DNA of 54,257 nt from assembly GCA_030426845.1 (NCBI GenBank), contig JAUHXR010000018.1, forward strand, positions 1 to 54,257, in the 5' to 3' direction. Below, piece by piece: positions 44,715 to 53,197 of the stretch. Each line of letters begins with the position of its first letter. Positions within the stretch are counted from its first letter, which is position 1. The notes beneath the pieces were generated by a model. That model did not search any database. It saw only the letters and a list, made by a program, of their open reading frames with translations, and was not told the DNA's origin. Source of the stretch: Polyangia bacterium (GTDB taxonomy: Bacteria; Myxococcota_A; Polyangia; Polyangiales; Sandaracinaceae). The position numbers were made by a program, and so were the translations under genes.

Positions 44715-46748
44715 TCAGCGGAGGCCGACGCGCCGACTCAGGGTCTCGCCGGCGCGGATCGTCACGCGGTAGGTCTCGTCGACCCCCTGCTCGCGGTTGA
44801 CGAGCCGGAGCGCGTGGGTGCCCGCGGGCAGCTCCACCCGGAGCAGCGGGGTCGTCCCGAGGCTGCGGCCGCCGAGGCTCACCTCCGTCCACGGGGTGGT
44901 CGCGAGGGTGAGGAAGCCGCTGGCCGGCGCGGGCGCCGGAGGCGCGGGGGTCGGCTCGGGGCGCGTCCGGCGACCGGTCCGACGCCGGCGCTCCGACGAG
45001 GTCGGCGCGGCGGCCAGGCCCTCCGGCTCGGTGGACGGCTCGGTCGCCGCGGTCGCCGCGGGCTCGGTCGGCGCCGCCCCCGGCTCGCTCCCCTCCGCCA
45101 CCACGCCGCCGGGCGCGGGGTCGAGCGGGTCGCTCGGCGAGTGATCGCCCCGGTCGCCCAGCGCGGGTTCGGCCAGCCCGGGTTCGGCCAGCCCGGGATC
45201 GCCCAGCGCGGGATCGCCCAGCGCAGGATCGCCCAGCGCGGGATCGCCCAGCGCGGGATCGCCCAGCGCGAGATCGCCCAGCGCGGGATCGCTCGGCGCA
45301 GGCGGAAGGAGCGGGCTCGGCGACGCGGGGTCCAACGCCGACGGCTCGGCGTGGGGGGCCCCGACCGCGGCCGCCGCGGCCGCCGCGTCGACCGCACCTC
45401 GGTCGTCTTCGTCGTCGCCGCCGAGCGGCAGGACGAGGGCGAGGAGCGCAGCCAGCCCGAGCACCGCCGCGAGCGCGACCCAGCGCAGCGTCCGTGAGGG
45501 CCGCCCCGCCTGTGAGGCCGGCGCACGCGTAGGCCGCTCCCCCGAGGCGGGCGCCGTCGACGTCGACGCGGGCGCCGCCGACGCCGAGGACGCGGCGCCC
45601 GTCGACGCGGGCGGCGCGGGAGGCCCCGTGACGGACGGCGTGAAGCTGGGCGTCGGGGTGGGCAGGCTCGACGCCGGCGCGACGATCGCCTCGAGGGTCC
45701 CCTCGCTCGGGGCCCGCCCTGTCCCCGCGAGGCACTCGGCGAGGGTCCGCTCGTGGAGCGCGATGACGGCCTCGAAGCGGGCCCGCATCTCGGCCGCGAC
45801 CTCCTTGCGACCCGCTCGCCGGGGGAGCCCGAGCAGGTAGCGCTCGAGGTCGTCCTTCATCTCCTGGGCGCTCTGGTAGCGCTCGGCCGGATCGCGCTGG
45901 AGCGCCCGCATGCAGATCGTGTCGAGCTCGGTGGAGAGCTCGGGCCGGAACGCGGAGGGCAGCTTGATCTCGCCCTGGATGGTCTCATGGAGCGTGGCGA
46001 GCTCGTTGACGCTCTTGAAGAGCCGCCGGCCGGTGAGCGTCTCCCAGAGCACGACCCCCATGGACCACAGATCCGAGCGCTGATCGACCTCCTGGCCGAG
46101 CGCCTGTTCGGGCGAGATGTAAGCGTACTTGCCCTTGATCACCCCGGTCTGCGTCTCGACGACGTGGGTCGCGGCCTTGGCGATCCCGAAGTCGAGCAGC
46201 TTCACCATCCCGTCGTAGGTGATGAAGATGTTCTGCGGGCTCACGTCGCGGTGCACCACGGTGAGCGGGGTGCCGTCGTAGTCCGTCAGCTCGTGCGCGT
46301 AGGCGAGCCCCTCGAGCGCGTCGGTCACGATGCGCGCCGCGATGCGCGGGTCGATCGGGCGGTCCTGCTGCCCGCTGATCCGCAGCAGGCGCTCGAGGCC
46401 CTGGCCGTCGAGGTACTCCATCGCGAGGTAGTGCCCCGACGCGTGCTCGCCCACCTCGAACGTCTGCACGCAGTGCGGGTGGTTGAGCTGCGCGGCGAGC
46501 CGGGCCTCGTCGAGGAACATCTCCACGAACCCGGGCTCCATCGCGAGGTGGCGGTGGAGCCGCTTGATGACGGTGAGCTTCCGGAAGCCGCCCTGCCCCT
46601 CGACCACCGCGAGGTTCACCTCGGCCATGCCGCCGTGGCCGAGCTTGCCGATGAGCGTGTACTTGCCGTACGGCTGCGGCGGGATCGCGGCGAGCGAGTA
46701 CGCCTGCGTCGCCGCGTCACGCGGTCGCGCCTCACTCGGTGCGGTCAC
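44715..46748 (-). CDS. transmembrane Ser/Thr protein kinase with PEGA-like domain
   Basis: The 677-residue protein has a kinase domain (about 28-300) with LGHGGMAEVNLA, Lys62 (TVIKRL), HRDVSPQN with Asp168, DFG 186-188 and SPEQ. A Pro/Ser/Thr-rich juxtamembrane linker leads to a membrane segment (about 425-447) and an Ala/Asp-rich outside stretch with about nine ALGDP-like pentapeptides encoded by 15-bp repeats (45165-45300). The end is a PEGA domain (about 600-677; FLTLATTPWTEVSLGGRSLGTTPLLRVELPAGTHALRLVN). PEGA domains bind outside ligands or surface partners. GTG start 70 bp after the FHA-activator gene, probably one operon. The FHA protein is a likely phospho-Thr partner. Confidence 0.93.
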   Translation of the reverse strand: MTAPSEARPRDAATQAYSLAAIPPQPYGKYTLIGKLGHGGMAEVNLAVVEGQGGFRKLTVIKRLHRHLAMEPGFVEMFLDEARLAAQLNHPHCVQTFEVGEHASGHYLAMEYLDGQGLERLLRISGQQDRPIDPRIAARIVTDALEGLAYAHELTDYDGTPLTVVHRDVSPQNIFITYDGMVKLLDFGIAKAATHVVETQTGVIKGKYAYISPEQALGQEVDQRSDLWSMGVVLWETLTGRRLFKSVNELATLHETIQGEIKLPSAFRPELSTELDTICMRALQRDPAERYQSAQEMKDDLERYLLGLPRRAGRKEVAAEMRARFEAVIALHERTLAECLAGTGRAPSEGTLEAIVAPASSLPTPTPSFTPSVTGPPAPPASTGAASSASAAPASTSTAPASGERPTRAPASQAGRPSRTLRWVALAAVLGLAALLALVLPLGGDDEDDRGAVDAAAAAAAVGAPHAEPSALDPASPSPLLPPAPSDPALGDLALGDPALGDPALGDPALGDPALGDPGLAEPGLAEPALGDRGDHSPSDPLDPAPGGVVAEGSEPGAAPTEPAATAATEPSTEPEGLAAAPTSSERRRRTGRRTRPEPTPAPPAPAPASGFLTLATTPWTEVSLGGRSLGTTPLLRVELPAGTHALRLVNREQGVDETYRVTIRAGETLSRRVGLR

Positions 46749-46818: not shown

Positions 46819-48201
<1,383 letters not shown>

Positions 48202-48207
48202 CACGCG

Positions 48208-49229: not shown

Positions 49230-52109
49230 ATGGGCGTGGACAGGAAGAGCCTGCGGGCGCTCCGCGACGCGGAGTGGGCTTCGGTGGACGACCTCCGCGA
49301 GTTCGTGGAGGGCGTCCTCCCGCTCGCGAAGCGGGACGTCGAGAAGATGCTCGAGGTCCTGCTCGACCCGAAGATCGAGCGGGTCGGGCCGCGCCACAAG
49401 AACCGCTGCGCGGTGTTCAAGACGGCGGTGACCCGGAGCGCTCAGACGGCGTTCTTCTCGCCGCTCGCCCAGGCGATCGTCCCCGGCGACCCGATGCTGC
49501 GCGCGGTGATCGTCGAGCTGCTGCCTCGGATGAACGACACCGGGCGGCACGACGACCTCTGCGTCGCGCTCGGCGACAAGGACCCCAAGGCGCGGGCGGC
49601 CGCCGCGCAGGCGCTCGGCGAGGTCGGGGGGCCGACCGCGCTCAAGTCCCTGACCGAGCTGGCCCGATCCCCCGGGTTCATGGGGCGCCGCGAGGCCCTC
49701 GACGTGATGATCCCGAAGGCGCGCCACCGCGCCCTCGAGCTGATCGTGGCCGTCGCGGAGCGCGGGACGACCCCCGAGCGGGTCTACGCGCTCGGGTTCC
49801 TCGGCGACCCGGAGCTGATGAGCGGCGCTCTCGAGGGCGCGATCGAGGCCGCCCTCGCCCTCGTCGAGTCGCCCGAGCGGCGGGTCTCGGAGGCAGCGCT
49901 GAGGGCGTTCGCAGCCCTCGCCGAGGGCGACCGCTTCCTCGACGCGATCGCCGGCCGCGTGCTCGAGCCCGACGTCTCGCCGACGATCGTCGAGGCGATC
50001 GGACACGTGCGCTCGCCTCGCGCGGTGCAGATGCTCAAAGCGCGGCTGCGCATCGGGCCGCCCTCGCTCCAGCTCGCGGCGGTCCGCGCGCTCGGGCGCA
50101 TCGCCACCGACGAGGTCGTGGGCCCGCTGGTCGAGGCGCTCCACCTCCCGGACGGCCCCGCGCGCCGGGCCGCCTCGGAGGCGCTCTTCGCCCTCGGCAG
50201 CCGCGACGACATCGACCTCGCCCGCCTCCTCGTCACGCTCCTCAAGAGCCCCCACGCCCACGTCCGCGCGGCGGCCTCGCAGATCGCGAGCACGGTGAAG
50301 CGCGCGACCGAAGACCTGGTGCGTCAGCTCCTCGCGACCCTGCGGGACGAGAGCTGGTGGGTGCGCGAGCGGGTGCTCGACGCGCTGGTCGAGATGCGCC
50401 TGCCGAGCCTCACGCGCTCGCTCGTCGAGTACCTCTCGGACGAGAATCCGGTCATCCGGCGCTACGCCATCTACGGCCTGCTCCGGATGGGCGATCGGGC
50501 CGCCCTCGGCGCGATCCTCACCACCGCGGTCAGCGACGACGACTGGTGGGTGCGCGAGCAGGCGATCCAGGCGACGGCCGAGCTCGGCGATCTGCGCGCG
50601 GTGGAGTACCTGCTCGCGATCGTGGAGCACCGGCCCGATCTGCGGGTCGCCTCGCTCGAGGCGCTCGAAGGCCTCGGCGCGGAGGACGAGCTGCTCAAGC
50701 TGGCCGAGCTCGCGAGCGACGACGACCCCGCGGTGCGCCTGAGCATCGTGACCGCGCTCGGGCGCATCGATCGCGGGCGCGAGGCCGCGTTCTACGTGCA
50801 GGCCTGCCGCGACGACCCGGAGCCGGTGGTCGCGCGCGCGGCCCGCGAGCTGCTCGATCGGTGGGATGTGGGCGGCGAGGACGAGGGCGCGACGGTCGGC
50901 CTGCTCGAGCGCATGCTCGTCGCGGCGGCGCGACGGGAGGCGGACGACCTGCTGCTCGCGCCGAACCGGCCGCCCTACGTGAAGGACCAGGGCCAGGTCT
51001 CGCCCATCAGCAAGGGCCTGCTCTCCGCCGAGGAGATGCAGAAGATGATCTTCCCGCTGCTGACGCCCCAGCAGCGAGACCGCCTGGCGGCCGGCGCCGA
51101 CATCGACATGAGCTACGAGGTGCCGGGCTTCGGGATCCGCTTCCGCATCAACGTCTTCCGCGAGCGGAACGGCCTCGCCGCGGTGTTCCGGCGCATCCAG
51201 ACGGAGGTCCCGCACCTCGACGCGCTCGGGCTCCCCGAGGTGGTGCGCGGCTTCGCCGACTACCCGAACGGGCTCGTCCTCGTCGGGGGCCCGACCGGCT
51301 CGGGCAAGTCGACCACGCTGGCCGCGCTGATCGGCTACATCAACCAGCACAGCGGAAAGCACATCGTCACGATCGAGGACCCGATCGAGATGGTGCACCC
51401 GCAGTCGGCGAGCCTCATCAACCAGCGCGAGGTGGGCACCCACGCGCCCTCGTTCGCCCACGCGCTGCGCGCGGTGCTCCGGCAGGATCCGGACGTGCTC
51501 CTCGTGGGCGAGCTGCGCGACCAGGAGACGATCGAGTTCGCGGTCAACGCGGCCGAGACGGGCCACCTCGTCTTCGCGACGGTGCACACGACGAGCGCCG
51601 CGCTCAGCGTAGACCGCATGATCCACGCGATGCCCGCCGCGCGGCAGCCGCTGATCCGCTCGATGCTCGCCGAGTCGCTCCGCGCCGTCGTCTGCCAGCA
51701 GCTCCTCCGGCGCAGCGACCGCCCGGGCAAGCGGGTCCTCGCGTGCGAGGTGATGATCAACAACCACGCGGTGTCGAACCTCATCCGCAAGGACAAGAGC
51801 TTCCAGATCCCCTCGGTCATCCTCACCCACGCCGACGAGGGGATGCAGCTCATGGACGACCACCTGCAGAAGCTGGTCGCCTCCAAGGTCATCTCGCCCG
51901 AGGACGGGCTCCTCAAGGCGCTCGACAAGCACGCGTTCCGCGCCTTCGTGGACGCCCTCGAGGCGGGCGACCCCTCGGCCGCGACGATCCGCGCGACCGC
52001 GAGCGTCCCACCGCCGTCGATCCCGCCGCCGAACCTCTCGGGCCCCGGCGCCGGCTCGGTCAGCGCGATGCCCCGGTCCGCCGATCACCCGAAGTCGGGG
52101 GTGCGCTGA
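49230..52109 (+). CDS. HEAT-repeat/PilT fusion ATPase
   Basis: The 959-residue protein has about 540 residues of HEAT-type helical repeats (for example LGDKDPKARAAAAQALGEVGG; ATLRDESWWVRERVLDALVEM; SDENPVIRRYAIYGLLRMGDR). A complete PilT-like secretion ATPase follows: PAS-like N-domain (EADDLLLAPNRPPYV), Walker A GPTGSGKST (about 686-694), Asp box TIEDPIEMVH, Walker B VLLVGELRD, His box GHLVFATVHTTSA, and VSNLIRKDKSFQI. PilT ATPases depolymerise type IV pili at the inner membrane. The HEAT region may dock a partner protein. It is followed by a normal-sized PilT with a 1-nt stop/start overlap (TGATG). A TATCCT -10 candidate lies at 49213-49218. Confidence 0.92.
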   Translation: MGVDRKSLRALRDAEWASVDDLREFVEGVLPLAKRDVEKMLEVLLDPKIERVGPRHKNRCAVFKTAVTRSAQTAFFSPLAQAIVPGDPMLRAVIVELLPRMNDTGRHDDLCVALGDKDPKARAAAAQALGEVGGPTALKSLTELARSPGFMGRREALDVMIPKARHRALELIVAVAERGTTPERVYALGFLGDPELMSGALEGAIEAALALVESPERRVSEAALRAFAALAEGDRFLDAIAGRVLEPDVSPTIVEAIGHVRSPRAVQMLKARLRIGPPSLQLAAVRALGRIATDEVVGPLVEALHLPDGPARRAASEALFALGSRDDIDLARLLVTLLKSPHAHVRAAASQIASTVKRATEDLVRQLLATLRDESWWVRERVLDALVEMRLPSLTRSLVEYLSDENPVIRRYAIYGLLRMGDRAALGAILTTAVSDDDWWVREQAIQATAELGDLRAVEYLLAIVEHRPDLRVASLEALEGLGAEDELLKLAELASDDDPAVRLSIVTALGRIDRGREAAFYVQACRDDPEPVVARAARELLDRWDVGGEDEGATVGLLERMLVAAARREADDLLLAPNRPPYVKDQGQVSPISKGLLSAEEMQKMIFPLLTPQQRDRLAAGADIDMSYEVPGFGIRFRINVFRERNGLAAVFRRIQTEVPHLDALGLPEVVRGFADYPNGLVLVGGPTGSGKSTTLAALIGYINQHSGKHIVTIEDPIEMVHPQSASLINQREVGTHAPSFAHALRAVLRQDPDVLLVGELRDQETIEFAVNAAETGHLVFATVHTTSAALSVDRMIHAMPAARQPLIRSMLAESLRAVVCQQLLRRSDRPGKRVLACEVMINNHAVSNLIRKDKSFQIPSVILTHADEGMQLMDDHLQKLVASKVISPEDGLLKALDKHAFRAFVDALEAGDPSAATIRATASVPPPSIPPPNLSGPGAGSVSAMPRSADHPKSGVR

Positions 52110-53197
52110 TGGGCGCCCCGCGGCTCGACACCTTCCTGCGTATCGCCGCCGACCAGGACGCGAGCGACCTCCACTTCCACGCCGGCAAGGTGCCGAAGGT
52201 CCGCCACAACGGCGACCTCATCTCGCTGCCGTTCCGCGTGCTGTCCGAGCTGCAGGTGCGCTCGTTCCTCGACGAGATCATGACCGAGGAGCAGCGCGCG
52301 GAGCTCACGCGCGAGCAGCAGATCGACTTCGCCTACGAGCTCGACGGCGTGGGTCGCTTCCGGATCTCGGCCTGCCGCCAGTCCGACGGGCTCAGCTCGG
52401 TGTTCCGCTACATCCCCGACTCGGTGCCCAAGCTCGTCGAGCTCGACCTGCCGCCGGTGGTCACGACCTTCATCAACCACAGCAACGGGCTCGTCCTGAT
52501 GACCGGGCCGACCGGCTCGGGCAAGACCACGACCCTCGCCGCGCTCGTCGACCGCATCAACGAGACGTCGGCGCGCCACGTGATCACGGTCGAGGATCCG
52601 ATCGAGTACGTGCACCACCCCAAGATGGGGCTCGTCACCCAGCGCGAGGTCGGCACTCACGTGGAGTCGTTCGCGTCGGGCCTGCGCTCGGCGCTGCGCG
52701 AGTCGCCCGACGTGCTGGTGGTCGGCGAGATGCGCGACTTCGAGACAGTGTCGCTCGCGCTCGCGGCGGCCGAGGCGGGCGTCCTCGTGTTCGGCACGCT
52801 GCACACGGGCTCCGCCGCCAAGGCGATCGACCGCGTCCTCGGCACCTGCCCGGCGGACCTCCAGGAGCAGGTGCGCGAGGTCCTCGCCACGCTCCTGCGC
52901 GGCGCGCTCTCGCAGCGCCTCTGCCGCCTGAGGACGGGCGCCGGGCGCGCGGTGGCGACGGAGATCCTGCTCCAGTCGATCTCGATCTCGCACCTGATCC
53001 GCGAGGAGAAGATCCACCAGATCCAGGCGTACCTGCAGGGCGGCGGCGACGGATCGGTCGCGGGCATGAGCAGCCTCGAGCAGTCCCTCGCGCGGCTCGT
53101 GGCCCAGCACCAGATCGAGGAGGCCGAGGCGGTGCGGCACGCAAATGACCTTGATGCGCTGCTGCCGCTCCTCGCGCAGCACAGGGACGCGCTGTGA
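52109..53197 (+). CDS. pilT: PilT/PilU-family twitching ATPase
   Basis: The 362-residue protein is a normal-sized type IV pilus retraction ATPase. It has N-domain ASDLHFHAGKVPKVRHNG, Walker A GPTGSGKTT (about 132-140), Asp box TVEDPIEYVH, Walker B VLVVGEMRD, His box VLVFGTLHTGSA, and the C-terminal SHLIREEKIHQI. The last corresponds to the AIRNLIRE motif needed for retraction. It probably forms hexamers at the pilus base, perhaps mixed with or assisted by the HEAT-fused ATPase encoded directly upstream. Translation is coupled on both sides (TGATG before, GTGA after). No pilin genes are in the window. Whether it is PilT or PilU cannot be decided from motifs alone. Confidence 0.93.
   Translation: MGAPRLDTFLRIAADQDASDLHFHAGKVPKVRHNGDLISLPFRVLSELQVRSFLDEIMTEEQRAELTREQQIDFAYELDGVGRFRISACRQSDGLSSVFRYIPDSVPKLVELDLPPVVTTFINHSNGLVLMTGPTGSGKTTTLAALVDRINETSARHVITVEDPIEYVHHPKMGLVTQREVGTHVESFASGLRSALRESPDVLVVGEMRDFETVSLALAAAEAGVLVFGTLHTGSAAKAIDRVLGTCPADLQEQVREVLATLLRGALSQRLCRLRTGAGRAVATEILLQSISISHLIREEKIHQIQAYLQGGGDGSVAGMSSLEQSLARLVAQHQIEEAEAVRHANDLDALLPLLAQHRDAL

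Follow-up and report, generated by a model that had tools for sequence, protein, structure and literature searches.

HEAT-repeat PilT fusions paired with a divergent PilT suggest an undescribed variant of the pilus retraction machinery in myxobacteria

Three overlapping forward-strand genes close to the end of a 54,257-nucleotide contig of a Polyangia bacterium of the Sandaracinaceae (JAUHXR010000018.1, assembly GCA_030426845.1; hereafter the window) encode a PilT ATPase fused to HEAT repeats (X), a second PilT-family ATPase (Y) and a TPR protein. The window is the whole of contig C519, from a draft genome of 9.4 Mb. Together with its relatives, in most of which the third protein also carries a Ser/Thr kinase domain, the gene set suggests a kinase-linked, paired HEAT-PilT motor that is apparently an undescribed variant of the pilus retraction machine. 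The reading that we prefer, and to which we give an even chance, is that the three genes form an accessory, regulated retraction-type motor of the type IVa pilus, in which X and Y would make up one motor controlled by the HEAT and TPR(-kinase) parts.

X is an uninterrupted reading frame from its ATG, with a single 959-residue product (49230-52109, + strand). It is a complete PilT-type ATPase joined to a HEAT solenoid by a short flexible linker, and thus agrees with an earlier sequence-only reading of the window, which had described a PilT fused to about 540 HEAT residues at these positions. Residues 559-901 score 414.3 bits against the NCBIfam family pilT_fam (TIGR01420, cut-off 319.1), and X scores 157.5 bits against Pfam HEAT_2 over seven stretches (cut-off 27.7), 72 bits against HEAT and 161 bits against T2SSE. 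The AlphaFold2 model, built on an alignment of 40 orthologues, has a mean predicted local distance difference test (pLDDT) score of 88.9. It comprises an unbroken alpha-solenoid of 34 helices over residues 1-545 (49230-50864, +), a low-confidence linker at residues 549-554, a PilT fold of PAS-like N domain plus RecA domain spanning residues 558-910 (50901-51959, +), and a tail that is disordered from residue 923. Modelled alone, the HEAT part (residues 1-550) reaches a mean pLDDT of 93.1, and VIA-align superposes the PilT part on Geobacter PilT4 (6ojy) with Z 43.5 and 2.3 Å over 351 residues. Conservation within the solenoid is concentrated in a patch at residues 346-450 (50265-50579, +) that contains two D-x-x-WWVRE repeats, beginning at residues 373 and 436. 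Across the 40 aligned fusions, 38 HEAT positions are conserved at 90% or more and 25 of these fall in residues 351-450; W377, R379, E380, R410, D436, D438, W439 and E443 are invariant.

An assembly error does not account for the fusion: it is in frame in relatives, where a second PilT gene follows it directly. We scanned 84,980 species genomes with the HEAT part as the sole query and found 80 loci; with those from a search of relatives added and three duplicates removed, the HEAT part is present at 84 loci. The PilT domain is in frame with it in 78 of the 84. Among the remaining six, L081 and L138 resemble the same gene interrupted by a stop or frameshift, L143 ends within the gene, and L146, L149 and L150 differ. 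A second PilT lies immediately 3' in 69 of 70 fusions with at least 1.3 kb of downstream sequence; the sole exception, L129, has a PilT and a kinase gene placed just upstream of the fusion. Many of the relatives are metagenome assemblies, in which the labels Phycisphaeraceae and Ferroglobus may reflect binning errors, and their gene starts, from a home-made codon-usage caller, are approximate. The many metagenome assemblies and the few stop-split loci could be taken to favour an assembly or gene-calling artefact as the source of the fusion or operon, but we find that hardly credible: the loci were selected on HEAT residues only, yet PilT follows in frame, including in a single-contig 10.3 Mb genome (G001). 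The sequence-only reading had named split genes in close relatives as the observation that would speak against a true fusion; that check, made on the relatives, did not refute the fusion, and we reject a split-gene origin. One near relative is a Sandaracinaceae assembly (L071). Nor do near-identical copies alone account for the count, given that the 77 PilT-bearing fusions fall into 50 clusters at 70% identity. In an even sample of the phylum, the profile recovered HEAT-PilTs in 28 of 282 genomes from at least 13 families, a figure that includes a shorter second type. This type is 813-822 residues long, occurs in two genomes of the same order (L037:7047-9488 and L038:10955-13423), likewise has a PilT without H222 after it, and has partial matches of the same kind in several other families. 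An apparent 1,295-residue PilT fusion elsewhere in the window's genome (G000:C457) was rejected as a gene-calling artefact; the true start of that protein is probably at MKRIDFYVQHLVRH, for a length of about 500 residues.

Is the fused ATPase an intact motor? Alignment to Pseudomonas aeruginosa PilT places in X a Walker A motif (GPTGSGKST, 51288-51314, +), the Asp box, Walker B with its glutamate, and an intact His box, ETGHLVFATVHT (51555-51590, +), with the equivalents of both H222 and H229, which bears out the earlier expectation that the fusion retains its motor motifs. Among 77 aligned HEAT-PilTs, H222 is present in all and H229 in 76. Other PilT hallmarks are altered: the signature AIRNLIRE reads AVSNLIRKD in X, with the change of E to K found in 77% of orthologues, and the N-terminal ASD-x-H motif is likewise changed (ADDLL). 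As a group, HEAT-PilTs are without S16, H19, R29, T129 and E295 (the last in the AIRNLIRE motif), all of which canonical PilTs and the partner proteins keep.

The partner Y (362 residues, 52109-53197, +) departs from canonical PilT at a different place. Its start codon shares one base with the X stop codon (TGATG), and the earlier view that the fusion is expressed together with a second PilT is supported in that the two are co-operonic. Y scores 398.8 bits against TIGR01420 (cut-off 319.1; query translation without its start methionine) and matches the solved P. aeruginosa PilT 3jvu by sequence with an E-value of 8e-84. Its description as a standard PilT does not stand, for Y falls in a clade apart from both HEAT-PilT and canonical PilT, and a valine codon (residue 225, 52781-52783, +) replaces the first His-box histidine, PilT H222. 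This residue is present in none of the 71 aligned partners, mostly being valine, and is absent too from all other members of the Y clade examined; the other motifs are kept. Y also lacks D196 and N174. In PilB, H413 corresponds to H222 and packs on T411, a threonine at the inter-subunit contact of the ring, and H420, the counterpart of H229, binds the gamma-phosphate (PMC5424180). Walker A, the Asp box and Walker B with the catalytic glutamate are conserved across the 77 X and 71 Y proteins, and both X and Y have the arginines R80 and R82. X and Y, which differ in the canonical PilT residues that they have lost, are therefore specialized in complementary ways. Such losses would suit a shared X-Y ring, short of proof.

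A third reading frame begins four bases before the end of the Y stop codon (GTGA) and is cut by the contig end (53194-54257, +). Alignment to the full-length genes of L031, L033, L034 and L039 delimits an N-terminal TPR-like part and a Pro-rich linker. Its earlier description as a Pro-rich protein was thus right about the linker and missed the nature of the protein, which is a TPR protein fused to a kinase in most relatives. Of 57 loci that extend far enough, 48 have after Y a gene for TPR-like repeats and then a Ser/Thr kinase; Pkinase scores in relatives' third genes are 162-186 bits, and HRD and DFG are retained in 55 of 55 kinase domains found. Against a background of 14 kinases among 444 genes of at least 200 residues in the flanking regions, this association is far from chance.

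No kinase domain was found in the four full-length Sandaracinaceae third genes used for the alignment, in which the TPR parts remain. The L033 protein aligns to the TPR parts of the L093 TPR-kinase (E-values 4e-26 and 1e-14), and the TPR part is also retained in L072 and L096. As kinase-bearing third genes occur in distant groups, including CSSED10-310, loss in the Sandaracinaceae is likelier than gain elsewhere, and we infer that this family probably lost the kinase while the TPR part remained. The missing end of the window's third gene was sought in the same genome, where only a paralogue on contig C19 was found; the third-gene paralogue of this genome (L157:823-2247) has 474 residues in a TPR-linker-TPR arrangement, no kinase, and a location on another contig with no adjacent PilT within the stretch read. 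Two variants were seen among the relatives. At L142 (11823-14258) the third gene is replaced by one for an 811-residue protein that begins with a response-regulator receiver domain, and at L150 (3-3560) HEAT repeats are fused straight to a Ser/Thr kinase, with a PilT gene next.

The pair is part of an older family of paired PilTs that the sequence-only reading had missed. The order holds four kinds of adjacent PilT pair with different N-terminal attachments. In IQ-TREE phylogenies the second genes of every pair type fall into a single clade (ultrafast bootstrap 93), and all first genes, together with a set of solo PilTs, group together (75). The individual pair types are well supported, with 100 for X1 and 99 for Y1 of the HEAT type, and canonical PilTs of the same genomes fall elsewhere, neither X1 nor Y1 grouping with the PilT linked to pilB and pilC. 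Given the mirrored clades of X and Y and a gene order that is constant across the four pair types, the simplest reading is that one ancient pair was probably kept and duplicated as a whole. The idea that every tandem PilT pair has a kinase was rejected, as the kinase was found with the HEAT type only. In one other pair type (L041:10706-11878, L042:10613-12196, L044:8664-10541 and L052:8591-10513) the first gene lacks H229 (TLHT to TMNT) and the second lacks H222 and, mostly, the Walker B aspartate. Two related species encode two complete PilTs head-to-tail in one chain of 722 and 733 residues (L054:8834-11002 and L055:1730-3931), in a clade other than that of the HEAT pair.

With moderate confidence, we regard the X-Y module as an accessory motor for type IVa pili. 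Of 22 HEAT-PilT genomes tested, all have PilQ, the secretin of the type IVa pilus, above the cut-off and all have a PilB hit, 21 of these above the cut-off; measured against a phylum background of 116 PilQ-positive genomes in 140, the enrichment is mild, and kinship is ignored in this comparison. In genomes outside the main set, PilQ matches were found in 12 of 13, nine above the cut-off. In one genome the operon stands head-to-head (divergent) with pilB-pilT-pilC-pilS. A canonical PilT is separately present in all six genomes checked, so we reject replacement of canonical PilT by the X-Y pair.

Comparison with known systems places the module close to, and distinct from, the characterized retraction motors. 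X and Y have the fold, the domain order and nearly all ATPase motifs in common with canonical PilT (P. aeruginosa PilT, 3jvu; Geobacter PilT4, 6ojy and 6okv), whereas X has 545 extra HEAT residues and the altered ASD-x-H and AIRNLIRE motifs, Y has lost H222, and both belong to clades separate from that of the canonical PilT which these genomes also encode. The PilT-PilU pair is likewise two adjacent PilT-family genes in one operon, but the X and Y clades lie apart from a presumed PilU (L051_3). Bit scores to P. aeruginosa PilU and PilT are 244 and 298 for X, and 223 and 285 for Y; the tree had no verified PilU. PilT-PilU is not known to have a HEAT, TPR or kinase partner. The X solenoid shares its alpha-solenoid fold with HEAT scaffolds such as PP2A PR65, karyopherin beta2 and the alphaRep designs (Foldseek E-value of about 1e-9 to PP2A scaffolds; VIA-align Z of 16-17 to alphaReps over about 150-215 residues). 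The search of solved structures with the HEAT model returned generic solenoids only, and these matches do not imply a common function.

That myxobacteria can have additional PilT copies away from the pil cluster is known, and four PilT proteins are reported for Myxococcus xanthus (PMC6060248, PMC6762196). A 2018 survey of myxobacterial pili that included Sandaracinus has no mention of HEAT (PMC6060248). Literature searches for PilT with HEAT, which covered open-licence papers, returned nothing relevant, in line with the earlier statement that HEAT-PilT lies outside textbook pilus machines; an earlier description elsewhere is possible. A search by the names of what we take to be the M. xanthus paralogues, MXAN_6705 and MXAN_6706, gave no hits, and no M. 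xanthus PilT paralogue could be tied to the module by name.

How might such a module work? X and Y, as obligate partners, would assemble as one motor, and a mixed ring, possibly with alternating X and Y, is favoured because they have lost different canonical residues, among them, in Y, the His-box histidine that lies where subunits meet. The HEAT arms would extend from the ring on their flexible linkers to form a platform whose conserved patch (residues 346-450) may bind a component of the pilus, the TPR protein, or the two together. In species that have it, the kinase would phosphorylate the motor or its dock, and phosphorylation might switch when the X-Y motor, rather than canonical PilT, engages the PilC platform; the family of the window would have lost the kinase and kept the TPR part. 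The gene structure, the fusion and its conservation, the conserved patch, the operon, the paralogy, the residue losses, the kinase association and the presence of type IVa-pilus genes are observed, and from these we infer action on the pilus, the hetero-oligomer, the binding partners and phosphorylation. The earlier suggestion of a possible role in regulating retraction or in docking another complex fits both the conserved patch and the TPR(-kinase) protein encoded next to it. A bolder version, possible but doubtful, is a hetero-oligomeric PilT-type motor of two obligate, complementary paralogues with a HEAT docking crown for a TPR-Ser/Thr kinase, in which retraction would be switched by phosphorylation. 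Pairing of X and Y would then be an old and general design among myxobacteria, to which HEAT, kinase or other N-terminal parts could be attached interchangeably. If true, this would be the first known hetero-oligomeric PilT-type motor.

Several points weigh against a single, kinase-controlled pilus motor. Other pil genes adjoin the module in just one of about 80 loci, and co-occurrence with pilus genes is weak evidence because most myxobacteria have type IVa pili anyway. The deep grouping of the first genes has modest bootstrap support, the binding of the third protein to the motor would follow from gene order only, and phosphorylation is not essential to the module, given the absence of the kinase in the window's family. 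Moreover, PilT and PilU, which are the adjacent pair studied best, form separate homohexamers (PMC6821130, PMC6762196), which makes a stacked arrangement a serious rival. X and Y would then form a homohexamer each, and the two would stack or take turns on PilC in the manner of PilT and PilU, the HEAT arm being on one ring only. The precedent is close, as PilT and PilU are adjacent genes whose independent homohexamers cooperate (PMC6821130) and a PilU-like density lies beneath PilT in situ, as cited in PMC13142100, and X and Y each keep Walker A, the catalytic glutamate, R80 and R82. We nevertheless consider stacking unlikely, since the loss of different canonical residues in X and Y is easier to reconcile with one common ring than with two rings that each work alone, and neither protein appears to be an ortholog of PilT or PilU in trees that included no verified PilU.

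The pair may instead drive some other machine, which could be a secretion system, a type IV filament of another kind, or a process unrelated to pili that employs a PilT-like ATPase. The usual lack of linkage to pil genes would be explained, as would the pairs' presence in genomes that each already have a canonical PilT plus several extra PilT-like and PilB-like ATPases. However, X and Y exceed the cut-off of the type IVa-pilus PilT/PilU family, PilQ and PilB hits occur in every one of the 22 myxobacterial genomes tested, and no other pilin, platform or secretin gene accompanies the operon in the loci read, so we judge this improbable to a similar degree. Somewhat more improbable is a regulatory decoy, whereby X and Y would bind, cap or poison canonical PilT or PilB without driving retraction, with HEAT, TPR and kinase parts serving as signal input. 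The His-box histidine lost in Y and the altered AIRNLIRE and N-terminal motifs of X are compatible with this, and the kinase association suggests signaling, but the strong conservation over large distances of the catalytic residues, all of them in X and most in Y, is unexpected for a mere decoy.

Neighbors outside the three-gene set are mostly not conserved between families. Upstream of X in the window, on the opposite strand, are genes for an FHA-sigma54 activator (46819-48204) and a Ser/Thr kinase (44715-46748), a neighborhood that is not conserved in relatives. Elsewhere in the same genome, a 374-residue PilT-family protein (L063:4498-5622) is encoded amid seemingly flagellar genes, with flgK/flgL-like, csrA-like and flgI-like neighbors.

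The module touches on two open questions: how retraction of the pilus is turned on and off, and for what reason several PilT copies persist in many bacteria. It ties a PilT pair to an apparent signaling protein both physically, through the HEAT fusion, and genetically, through the operon, and it occurs in no fewer than 13 families of myxobacteria, as well as in several assemblies labeled as other phyla. A second gene that lacks H222 provides a sequence marker by which paired PilT motors may be located elsewhere. With this module, genetics can directly address whether a pilus motor may be hetero-oligomeric and under the control of a kinase.

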